From positions 868,001 through 932,000 of the forward strand of contig NZ_JAPKNI010000001.1 in NCBI RefSeq assembly GCF_026343955.1: 64,000 nt of DNA. Reading direction: 5' to 3'. Source of the stretch: Kaistia defluvii (lineage in GTDB: Bacteria; Pseudomonadota; Alphaproteobacteria; Rhizobiales; Kaistiaceae). The position numbers and the translations under genes are program-made. Within the stretch, counting starts at the first letter, position 1, and each line of letters opens with the position of its first letter. Below, piece by piece: positions 35,650 through 38,548 of this stretch. The notes beneath the pieces were generated by a model, which was given only the letters and a program-made list of their open reading frames with translations, did not search any database and was not told the DNA's origin.

Positions 35650-36030
35650 TCAGCGCAGGCTGGGGGTCTTCCGGAAGATCGCGGTCGCGAACAGGATCAT
35701 GCCGATCAGCGTGATCAGCGATCCCAGGATGACAATGGGTTCGCCGGCCGGCGCGCCGCGCAACGTCAGCACCAGGCCCGGGATCATGATCCAGAGGCCA
35801 ATCGTCGAGATCCAGAACTGGATCAGCGCGAGCCGGCTTTCCGCTTTGGCAGGATTGGCATTGTAATAAAAGCCCATCAGCGCGAGCGATACCCAGCCGA
35901 TCAGGTTGAGATGGGCATGCGCCGGTGCAAGACTAAAGTCCTGCTTCGCTCCCATGATGATTCCGCCCAGCATGCCGATGATCACATAGATCACCGCGGT
36001 GCCGATAAACATCTGGCTAATTCTTGGCAT
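35650..36030 (-). CDS. Small heme-copper-oxidase-like membrane protein
   Basis: A 126-residue, almost wholly hydrophobic protein with four predicted membrane helices. It contains SLAPAHAHLNLIGWVSLALMGFYY, which resembles the heme-ligand helix of cytochrome oxidase subunit I (especially cbb3/NorB type), but it is only a fraction of that subunit's length. The remaining helices are GMLGGIIMGA, IQFWISTIGLWIMIPGLVL and IVILGSLITLIGMILFATAIF. The two histidines of HAH could bind heme or metal. No other oxidase gene is near. It is a stand-alone family of unknown function. Confidence 0.75.
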   Translation of the reverse strand: MPRISQMFIGTAVIYVIIGMLGGIIMGAKQDFSLAPAHAHLNLIGWVSLALMGFYYNANPAKAESRLALIQFWISTIGLWIMIPGLVLTLRGAPAGEPIVILGSLITLIGMILFATAIFRKTPSLR

Positions 36031-36190: not shown

Positions 36191-36262
36191 CAAAAGAATG
36201 ACGCCGGCGCGCGACCGGGAGCCGAAGGAGAGGCTCAAGACTCGGTCGCGTCTGCCGGCGTC
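36191..36262 (-). terminator. Terminal stem-loop of the DUF1127/CCUCC-loop RNA locus
   Basis: On the minus strand GACGCCGGC pairs with GCCGGCGTC (36254-36262 and 36200-36208). An inner CGCGACCG/CGGTCGCG stem and a GAGCC/GGCTC stem with loop TCTCCTTC complete a very stable hairpin. It is followed by ATTCTTTTG. This should end the transcript that begins at the DUF1127 gene. Confidence 0.65.
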
Positions 36263-36449
36263 TGACGCATGGCTTCGGGAGGAAAGCCGCATGGCGTCGA
36301 AGAAGAAACGCCCGTCGGGGAGGAGGTCGACGGGCGTTTTTAAGGTGGCGCGTTGCCGGGGAGGAGGTCAGCGCGGCGCCGATCGCAGGGACTTGGAGGG
36401 GAGGAGATTCCCTGCGAATTCCTTGAACTTTTAGCGTGTATCGAAAGTC
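36191..36449 (-). ncRNA. Array of CCTCC-loop hairpins (CcsR/cuckoo-like sRNAs) in the DUF1127 3' region
   Basis: Directly downstream of the DUF1127 stop, the minus strand has a row of hairpins whose loops expose pyrimidine-rich CTCC motifs. Unit 1 (36384-36416) has an 8-bp stem and CTCCTCCCC in its loop. Unit 2 (about 36347-36380) has a weak GCGC stem and CCTCCTCCCC. Unit 3 (36306-36339) has an 11-bp stem and CCTCCTCCCC. Unit 4 (36264-36298) has a two-part stem and TCCTCCC. Unit 5 is the terminator hairpin, with TCTCC. In Rhodobacter, CcsR RNAs with a CCUCCUCCC motif are processed from the 3' region of a DUF1127 mRNA. The match in layout and motif is my basis; expression is unproven. Confidence 0.7.
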
Positions 36450-36602
36450 TTAGTAGCCAACAGCCTGCTTCGCGACGCGCTCGATCTCGCCACGATGAAT
36501 GCCGAGGTCAGCAAGCTCGCGGTTGTTGAGGCGGGAAAGCTCGTTGTAGGTCTCGCGGAACTTGCGCCAGGTCTTGTAGGAAGCAACGATGTTCATAGCC
36601 AT
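36450..36602 (-). CDS. DUF1127 (YjiS-like) small protein
   Basis: A 50-residue basic protein read from the minus strand: it starts MAMNIVASYKTWRKF and continues with RETYNELSRLNNRELADLGI before ending VAKQAVGY. The segment L-x-x-L-x-x-R-E-L-x-D-I/L-G-I-x-R-x-E-I-E is the DUF1127 signature. AAAGGA lies nine bases upstream of the ATG. In Rhodobacter a DUF1127 protein (CcaF1) binds RNA and affects maturation of the sRNAs encoded downstream; in Agrobacterium relatives influence phosphate uptake and sRNA/mRNA turnover. The CCTCC-loop hairpins that follow here strengthen that link. Stress induction is expected from family behaviour, though I cannot define a promoter. Confidence 0.92.
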   Translation of the reverse strand: MAMNIVASYKTWRKFRETYNELSRLNNRELADLGIHRGEIERVAKQAVGY

Positions 36603-36935
36603 TTTCGGATGTCCTTTTGAATTCGGTTTGATCTCTGTCGAACTGGCGCCGGATTTCTCTGTCGCCGTTCTTGTTGACGCTGATATAGGCTGATGCCGAC
36701 GGAATGAGCACTGCGTAAAAGCTCATGCCAGCGATGCGCGTGGCGCAGAGCAGCATTAATTTCACCGTCATATTGCACTGCACCTTAAGCGCTGCGGCCG
36801 AATTGCGGCACTCAGATACCGATTGCGCCGACATCGCGGCGACGAGCCGGCGGAGACATGCCCGTGACGCATGTCAAGGCAACCGCGCGGCCTGCCTAAT
36901 CGGGAGGCGGCCGCCACCTCACCCTGCCAGGCGCA
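36603..36935. other. Upstream region of the DUF1127 gene
   Basis: About 330 bases between the DUF1127 start and the hss terminator contain no supported gene. The minus strand should carry the DUF1127 promoter; a TATATC hexamer (complement of 36682-36687) is a possible -10 element, but no matching -35 or RpoH box is convincing. Confidence 0.4.
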
Positions 36936-36993: not shown

Positions 36994-38424
36994 TCAGCCC
37001 AGATTGTGGACCAGCACGTTGCGGAACTGCCAGGGGTCGCTCTCGTCGATGTCTTCCGGGAAGAAGCCCGGTCGATCGGTGAGCGGCGTCCAGTCGGTGT
37101 AGATGCCCTCGACGGTGCCGAGATAGGGCTTCTGCACGCTCAGGCACAGGTGATAGTCGAGCTCGTCCGCCTCGACGATGCCGGAGGTCGGATGCTCGAG
37201 CGCCCAGACCATGCCGGCGATCACCGCCGACGTGACCTGCATGCCGGTAGCGTTCTGGTAGGGCGCGTTCTCGCGCGCCTCGTCGATCGTCAGCCGCGAG
37301 CCATACCAGTAGGCGTTCTTGGCATGGCCATAGAGCAGCACGCCAAGCTCATCGCGGCCGGCGATGATCTCTTCCTCGCTGAGGATGTGCTGCTTCGACT
37401 GGCGCTTGCCGGCGCGGCCGAACATTTCGTGCAGCGACAGCACCGCGTCGTTGGACGGGTGGTAGGCGTAGTGGCAGGTCGGGCGATAGACGACTTCGCC
37501 CTCTTCGCGCACCGTGAAGTGGTCGGCGATCGAGATCGCTTCATTGTGCGTGACGAGGTAGCCGAGCTGCGGGCCGGGTGTCGGGCACCAGGAGCGCACG
37601 CGCGTATCGGCGCCGGGCCCCAGCAGGAAGATCGCCGCGCCGCTGCCGGTGTCATGCGTGCGGGCATGGTCCGGGATCCAGCGCTCATGCGTGCCCCAGC
37701 CAAGCTCGGCCGGCTGCAGCGCCTCGGAGATGAAGCCCTCGACCGACCAGGTGTTGATGAAGGTGTCGAGCTGCTTGGCGACGCGGGCGCGCTGCGTATC
37801 GCGCTCGGCGATGTGGATGCCCTTCACGCCGGTCGCCTTCATCAGGGCGGCCCATTCGCGACGCGTCTTCGGCTCGTCATGTTCGATGTTGAGGTCGCGC
37901 GCCACGTCCAGCAGCGCCTGCTTGACGAACCAGGACACCATGCCCGGATTGGCGCCGGAGCACGAAACCGCCGTCGGCCCGCCGGGATGGGCGCGCTTTT
38001 CCGTCAGCAGTTCTTCGCGCAGCGCATAGTTGGAGCGCGAGGCAGGGTCGGCCTTGTGGTCGTAGTAGAAGCCCGGCCAGGGCTCGATCACCGTGTCGAT
38101 GTAGAGGCTGCCGATTTCGCGGGCGAGCTTCATTATGTCGAGCGAGGAGGTATCGACCGAAAGGTTGACGCAAAAACCGCCGGCCGCCAGCAGCGGCGCC
38201 AGCACCTCGCGGTAGTTTTCCCGCGTCAGCGCCGCCTTGACGTGCTTCACGCCATAGGTAGCCATCAGTCCCACGTTTTCACTGCTCGGCTCGATGACCG
38301 TGATCTGCGGCTGGTCGAGCGCGAAATGGCGCTTGATCAGCGGGAGGAACCCTCGCCCGATCGAACCGAAGCCGATGATGACCACGGGGCCATGGATGCG
38401 ACCGTAGACAGGCCAAGTCGTCAT
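36994..38424 (-). CDS. hss: Homospermidine synthase
   Basis: A 476-residue NAD-dependent enzyme that makes sym-homospermidine from putrescine, the main long polyamine of many alphaproteobacteria. The N-terminal Rossmann motif is VVIIGFGSIGRGFLPL. The middle region contains SCSGANPGMVSWFVKQAL and IEPWPGFYYD, characteristic of bacterial Hss, and the length matches. ATG at 38424 has GGAG nine bases upstream; the longer frame to 38490 is not supported. It is downstream of ornithine decarboxylase and a GNAT gene on the same strand, giving a putrescine-to-homospermidine pathway. Confidence 0.95.
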   Translation of the reverse strand: MTTWPVYGRIHGPVVIIGFGSIGRGFLPLIKRHFALDQPQITVIEPSSENVGLMATYGVKHVKAALTRENYREVLAPLLAAGGFCVNLSVDTSSLDIMKLAREIGSLYIDTVIEPWPGFYYDHKADPASRSNYALREELLTEKRAHPGGPTAVSCSGANPGMVSWFVKQALLDVARDLNIEHDEPKTRREWAALMKATGVKGIHIAERDTQRARVAKQLDTFINTWSVEGFISEALQPAELGWGTHERWIPDHARTHDTGSGAAIFLLGPGADTRVRSWCPTPGPQLGYLVTHNEAISIADHFTVREEGEVVYRPTCHYAYHPSNDAVLSLHEMFGRAGKRQSKQHILSEEEIIAGRDELGVLLYGHAKNAYWYGSRLTIDEARENAPYQNATGMQVTSAVIAGMVWALEHPTSGIVEADELDYHLCLSVQKPYLGTVEGIYTDWTPLTDRPGFFPEDIDESDPWQFRNVLVHNLG

Positions 38425-38548
38425 AGCGAGACACTCCTCAAAGTCGAAATCAACAAGTGGGGTACCGTACCCTTCCTTCGTGACAAACAAAAAGTCGTGG
38501 ATGGAAGAGCGTCAACCCTTCCATCCACGACCGGTTTGAAGCGGGAGC

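Follow-up and report, generated by a model that had tools for sequence, protein, structure and literature searches.

What does the small DUF1127 gene of Kaistia defluvii produce together with the series of CCUCC-loop hairpins that follows it? The locus lies in a 64,000-nucleotide stretch of the genome, called the window here, in which an initial annotation made from the sequence alone had placed a 50-codon DUF1127 gene with CCUCC-loop hairpins 3' of it and had read them as a probable CcsR/cuckoo-type sRNA locus. The coordinates of all five hairpins proved correct (Table 1), and the evidence below makes it likely that the locus is transcribed as one LTTR-driven unit and yields both a DUF1127 protein and an anti-Shine-Dalgarno sRNA.

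Table 1. Features of the DUF1127–alpha-r14 locus and its flanks (positions in the window).
Feature	Position	Strand	Remarks
126-aa protein (flank)	35650-36030		COX1 match below threshold
Hairpin 5 and T-rich tail	36191-36262 (hairpin 36200-36262)	minus	loop with TCTCC; second terminator-like structure
Hairpin 4	36264-36298	minus	loop TTTCCTCCC; past first terminator
alpha-r14 (cuckoo) sRNA	36303-36422	minus	three CCUCC(UCC)-loop hairpins, the third an intrinsic terminator
Hairpin 3	36306-36339	minus	loop CCTCCTCCCC; terminator of alpha-r14
Hairpin 2	36347-36380	minus	loop CCTCCTCCCC
Hairpin 1	36384-36416	minus	loop CTCCTCCCCTCC
Spacer, 27 nt	36423-36449	minus	presumed processing region
DUF1127 small-protein gene	36450-36602	minus	50 aa, 6 arginines; Pfam PF06568
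Core promoter	36683-36711	minus	-35 GTGCTC 36706-36711, 17-nt spacer, -10 CTATAT 36683-36688
LsrB/VtlR-like operator, predicted	36724-36747	minus	TGC-N7-GCA then CnGnCATG
Distal palindrome	36771-36784	minus	promoter element, core TGC-N3-GCA
Flanking gene (hss)	36994-38490		saccharopine-dehydrogenase domains

The annotated gene was confirmed by its coordinates and by its match to PF06568 (52.8 bits, E 3.2e-14, gathering cut-off 23.3), which makes it a member of the DUF1127 family. Its product is 92–100% identical in the six further copies that are linked to hss and have a close DUF1127, 92–96% identical in named records of Kaistia granuli, K. adipata and K. terrae, and 98% identical in a Hyphomicrobiales MAG; a search of solved structures gave nothing convincing for it (best E 0.088). 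The flanking gene hss is presumably that of homospermidine synthase. The genome of this strain (4.9 Mb, 21 contigs) has five DUF1127 genes and three alpha-r14 copies, each copy directly 3' of a DUF1127 gene. A weak mmgR-like match was also seen 3' of a further DUF1127 gene in the same genome (L008:1803-1868; 26.7 bits, cut-off 41, E 0.067). On the 5' side of the ornithine decarboxylase gene in the window, a speF leader (RF00518, 40417-40545, minus strand, 52.3 bits) and an alpha-r45 match (RF02347, 40554-40756, minus strand, 48.2 bits) were found.

A search with the cuckoo covariance model, which the initial annotation had recommended, placed the Rfam family alpha-r14 (RF02344) on hairpins 1 to 3 at 66.5 bits (cut-off 58.8, E 8.2e-10). 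The match has the three hairpins of alpha-r14 with the motif in unpaired loops and the third as terminator, the loop of hairpin 1 carrying a shifted form of the CCUCC(UCC) motif. The predicted fold of 36191-36449 reached -112.9 kcal/mol against a shuffle mean of -78.5 (sd 4.5; z -7.6), and none of the 200 dinucleotide shuffles was as low; together with the alpha-r14 score, this puts the hairpin stretch far beyond chance. The array described earlier is present with all its five hairpins but is not uniform, as hairpins 1 to 3 are one alpha-r14 with its own terminator. What had been taken for several sRNAs is one three-loop sRNA, to which a fourth loop is added in some species only. The identification as CcsR was abandoned in favour of alpha-r14, the CcsR1 model (RF02791) scoring 15.7 bits at the window copy against a cut-off of 65.3; two paralogous copies in the same genome gave sub-threshold CcsR1 matches of 35.6 and 32.3 bits. 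The wider idea of a module of DUF1127 and a cuckoo-type sRNA stood, with both family matches and with the association published in PMC10253847.

The alpha-r14 RNA was found in all 14 Kaistia genomes, with 47 hits of which 40 were above the cut-off. Covariation was analysed in an alignment of 43 of these copies, the weak hits L049, L050 and L052 and the contig-end hit L051 being omitted. The 31 stem pairs formed in 94.1% of the cells versus 86.6% in shuffles, and in 38–54% when the partner was shifted by 1–3 columns as a control. Compensatory changes in relatives, which had been named beforehand as a check, were present: 19/31 pairs had changed on both sides, versus 9.5 in shuffles, and 0/500 shuffles were as high. 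Two results of the same alignment count against our main reading, as the further standard pair types did not exceed those in shuffles (123/500 reached the number) and the pairing of hairpin 1 was weaker (85.3% of the cells). The loop motifs were among the most constant columns. Thus, the claim that loops are kept while stems vary holds for the covarying stems, but in hairpin 3, the stem of which varies least, 6 of the 11 pairs never vary either. These covariation tests together indicated that the alpha-r14 structure is under selection.

The hairpins beyond alpha-r14 were compared among the copies linked to hss, eight in the genus, seven of which have a close DUF1127 and were aligned (L009, with a DUF1127 66% identical, was omitted). 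Hairpin 4 is present in three of the seven (the window copy, G004 and G013) and absent from four; by eye, the three copies differ by one pair changed on both sides (C-G to U-A) and one pair changed on one side. The stem of hairpin 5 is invariant in all seven copies; its loop is variable and does not keep CCUCC, so that conservation of the loop motif is not supported for this terminator hairpin. The T-run of the first terminator has three or fewer T in 4/7 hss-linked copies and in 0/36 other copies examined (L009 among these; L049, L050, L051 and L052 omitted), as taken from the T-run column alone of a crude scan that missed part of hairpin 5. All three copies with hairpin 4 belong to the four with a short T-run. 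Because this T-run is interrupted in the window copy, part of the transcripts should read through hairpin 4, and the sequence suggests that the first terminator is leaky and is backed up by the second.

The order of the two genes is largely constant in Kaistia. DUF1127 stands upstream of alpha-r14 on the same strand at 43/47 hits. In 37 of these 43 copies, no more than 10 nt separate its stop codon from the sRNA; in the window copy, the distance is 27 nt. By analogy with CcsR, this spacer is presumed to be a region of RNase E processing. The four hits without DUF1127 are L023, in which the promoter described below is kept, and three weak hits without promoter. At L023 (G011:C3:138152-138273), where no DUF1127 was found, the same promoter lies directly 5' of alpha-r14, which is the NfeR1 arrangement within the genus.

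An LsrB/VtlR-like promoter was found at 44 of the 47 genus hits, in 43 copies 5' of DUF1127; the remaining three (L049, L050 and L052; 31.9–36.3 bits, without DUF1127 or promoter) were dropped before the promoter was scored. The consensus is TGC-N7-(G/A)CA followed, at a constant distance of 45 nt, by a -10 close to CTATAT, the -35 resembling TGCTC, and a score of at least 8/12 was obtained in 44/44 kept copies and in 0/4400 mononucleotide shuffles; because the copies are related, the 44 represent conservation and not independent events. In addition, the distal TGC-N3-GCA occurs 37–38 nt upstream of the box in 42/44 Kaistia copies, whereas it was found anywhere in the same 60 nt in 136/8800 mononucleotide shuffles. 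The pattern TGC-N7-GCA-N3-C-N-G-N-CATG-N13-TGC has three matches in the genome of this strain, exactly at the three DUF1127–alpha-r14 pairs, and none elsewhere, including at the two other DUF1127 genes; the reversed pattern gave no match in the same genome. As the pattern was derived from these loci, its absence from the rest of the genome is the informative part. The geometry of box and -10 is the same as that of the LsrB site of nfeR1, published as TGCA-N6-GCAT at -72 to -57 with a -10 CTATAT (PMC10746234), so that by motif and spacing the LsrB box with sigma-70 promoter of the NfeR1 type is present at these 44 hits. The downstream half of the box, CnGnCATG, agrees with CAATGCAGCCATGCA, the motif published for VtlR (PMC12595884). 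Placed by the NfeR1 geometry, transcription would start at about 36676. Since the promoter stands before DUF1127 in 43 copies, the protein and the sRNA look like products of one transcript.

A LysR gene was found directly behind trxB in the same genome (L155:2500-3390), and the position of vtlR behind trxB is described as well conserved in Alphaproteobacteria (PMC7486931). The identity of this gene rests on its position, because none of the 25 NCBIfam families listed among the 56 matched reached the cut-off. It is a candidate regulator, tied to the promoter by motif and gene order only, and this counts against the main reading.

Beyond the genus, the gene and the RNA are joined in some lineages and apart in others. 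A match to alpha-r14 was obtained in 47 of the 101 genomes searched, that of this strain included. Among 21 listed loci of other genera and families (one per genome, seven below the cut-off), 11 have the fused order with the DUF1127 stop -1 to 10 nt before alpha-r14, three have DUF1127 83–209 nt upstream, and seven have no DUF1127 within about 1.5 kb. Tandem alpha-r14 in two or three copies, recalling the CcsR cluster, was seen at G094:C59:204875-205349, G014:C16:81994-82326 and G015:C35:16440-16763. A scan of named DUF1127 loci covered the best 80 of at least 576 confirmed stretches, and 60 of these were scanned with Rfam (17 of the Kaistia group and the last three omitted). In this best-scoring sample, alpha-r14 lies upstream of DUF1127 in 32/60 loci, separately downstream in 6/60 and fused in 3/60 (two Prosthecomicrobium, one Rhizobium albus), and no alpha-r14 above the cut-off was found within 2.5 kb in 19/60; of the 41 loci in which both occur, 38 thus have them apart. 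The 32 upstream loci and the 19 without alpha-r14 mean that DUF1127 and alpha-r14 are separable, which counts against the main reading. In the same 60 loci, box and -10 precede DUF1127 in 57, and TGC-N7-GCAT followed by G is present in 58 against 50/6000 shuffles. On rhizobial and agrobacterial plasmids, alpha-r14 lies about 180–220 nt behind DUF1127 in five of the six loci, with a terminator-like hairpin seen by eye between the two, and the search expression found a box before alpha-r14 in three of these five. Thus, the named and plasmid loci point to one promoter type standing widely before DUF1127, with the sRNA joined or apart by lineage.

The tight linkage of DUF1127 with the sRNA, and the six arginines in a protein of 50 residues, would also be expected if the loops were binding sites of the DUF1127 protein, forming an autoregulatory or sponge element and not mRNA-targeting seeds, and CcaF1 is reported to bind RNA and to take part in CcsR maturation (PMC10253847, PMC8625941). 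We consider this unlikely, as a Sinorhizobium ntrB reporter was lowered by NfeR1 and not by a variant with its three seeds mutated (PMC10746234), and protein contacts explain the work on DUF1127 in Agrobacterium and Salmonella (PMC12501420); moreover, the 19 named loci above have DUF1127 without alpha-r14 nearby. The results in PMC12501420, in which Agrobacterium DUF1127 proteins act on PhoR by contacts between proteins and Salmonella YjiS gave no sign of binding RNA, count against a part of our main reading as well. There is little to recommend the view that the hairpins merely stabilise or terminate the 3' UTR of the DUF1127 mRNA without any trans-acting sRNA: the unit does end in two terminator-like hairpins, but the CCUCC loops are kept in three hairpins with covarying stems, sRNA and promoter occur at L023 without DUF1127, and the sRNA is apart from the gene in nearly all named loci of the best-scoring sample that have both. 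A CcsR/RpoH stress locus as in Rhodobacter, with an RpoHI/RpoHII promoter and induction by heat and oxidative stress, is very improbable, for although the gene order is that of ccaF1-CcsR1-4 (PMC10253847) and two paralogs have the sub-threshold CcsR1 matches given above, the window copy falls far below the CcsR1 cut-off, the conserved promoter is LsrB/VtlR-like and the sole CTTGACA-like stretch seen further upstream is not conserved among the hss-linked orthologs. As the conserved promoter looks LsrB/VtlR-like and that of ccaF1-CcsR is an RpoHI/RpoHII promoter (PMC10253847), the heat or oxidative induction expected by analogy with Rhodobacter is not the best prediction.

The LTTR-driven dual mRNA that we prefer was proposed by combining published work on NfeR1 and LsrB, on VtlR and DUF1127, and on CcaF1 and CcsR, to the extent of the sections cited here. 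In it, a LysR regulator of the LsrB/VtlR kind, with the trxB-adjacent gene as candidate, would activate the promoter at 36683-36747, and the transcript would be translated into the DUF1127 protein, its 3' UTR being the alpha-r14 sRNA. Cleavage of the DUF1127 mRNA probably yields the sRNA, and the cut would fall in the spacer that follows the stop codon; alternatively, the sRNA may be active while attached. The three exposed CCUCC(UCC) loops would be redundant seeds: by pairing with the Shine-Dalgarno sequences of target mRNAs, they would prevent translation, as has been shown for NfeR1 in Sinorhizobium. Some transcripts may pass the first terminator, take in hairpin 4 as a possible fourth seed and end at the second terminator. 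The shared promoter suggests that protein and RNA work together, and the DUF1127 protein made alongside may bind this sRNA or mature it, as CcaF1 does for CcsR. More tentatively, LsrB/VtlR might ancestrally control one dual mRNA, for an RNA-binding DUF1127 protein and an sRNA which this protein matures or helps to pair, as the main output of the regulator in the genus; DUF1127 would then be the partner of Hfq-independent NfeR1-type sRNAs, and the weakened first terminator would add a fourth seed hairpin in the window copy.

The type of locus is already known, since the CIN1 locus has been named (PMC10253847) and alpha-r14 is in Rfam; the useful new point is the promoter shared by DUF1127 and alpha-r14. 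In the open-access library searched, none of the 10 papers listed for at least two of NfeR1, DUF1127, VtlR, cuckoo RNA and CcsR covers both NfeR1 and DUF1127, and the two matches for Kaistia and sRNA concern a mosquito larvicide and a fungus. Two fields, that of VtlR-controlled DUF1127 proteins and that of LsrB-controlled anti-Shine-Dalgarno sRNAs, meet in one predicted transcript. If the prediction is true, the RNA partner, if any, of NfeR1-type sRNAs, a question of PMC10746234, becomes directly testable, and so does the “intriguing puzzle” (PMC12501420) of whether DUF1127 binds RNA or proteins.

Among the known systems, NfeR1 of S. meliloti (Smr14C2, RF02344) is similar in having three hairpins whose stems vary and whose loops are anti-Shine-Dalgarno, and in its promoter, where an LsrB-type box (TGC-N7-GCA, about -72 to -57) precedes a -10 of sequence CTATAT. 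It is activated by LsrB and occludes ribosome-binding sites through its three loops, which serve as redundant seeds (PMC10746234). NfeR1 is transcribed from a promoter of its own immediately 5' of the sRNA, whereas DUF1127 stands between promoter and sRNA at the window locus, and the window copy has an extra hairpin and a second terminator. AbcR1 and AbcR2 (alpha-r15) have related anti-Shine-Dalgarno motifs but belong to another sRNA family; AbcR1 is placed under LsrB/VtlR in PMC10746234, and the sections of PMC7486931 cited here agree for Agrobacterium and report no LsrB effect in S. meliloti. The alpha-r15 model (RF02345) gave no match in the genome of this strain, and the control genomes were equally without match. 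An upstream-ORF attenuator is described in S. meliloti (PMC12218461). The CcaF1-CcsR1-4 locus of Rhodobacter sphaeroides shares the order of DUF1127 followed by CCUCC-loop sRNAs, there in one transcript, and CcaF1, which itself belongs to the DUF1127 family, is an RNA-binding protein that participates, together with RNase E, in the maturation of the CcsR RNAs made from its own mRNA (PMC10253847, PMC8625941). DUF1127 beside CcsR-like sRNAs is called the “CIN1 locus” (PMC10253847, citing Reinkensmeier and Giegerich 2015), and a short DUF1127 gene adjoining a CCUCC-loop sRNA is what the window has. In contrast to the four sRNAs of CcsR1-4, the window has one three-hairpin RNA (the CcsR1 model has two hairpins), and the promoter is LsrB/VtlR-like where that of ccaF1-CcsR is of RpoHI/RpoHII type (PMC10253847). 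Finally, the genes known to be activated by VtlR include DUF1127 genes of Brucella and, in Agrobacterium, atu1667 (PMC12595884, PMC7486931). Six of the seven Agrobacterium-named loci scanned have no alpha-r14 above the cut-off within 2.5 kb. Like these VtlR targets (BAB1_0914, BAB2_0512 and BAB2_0574 in Brucella; atu1667), the DUF1127 gene of the window lies behind a VtlR-type box; in the window, alpha-r14 is fused to the gene.
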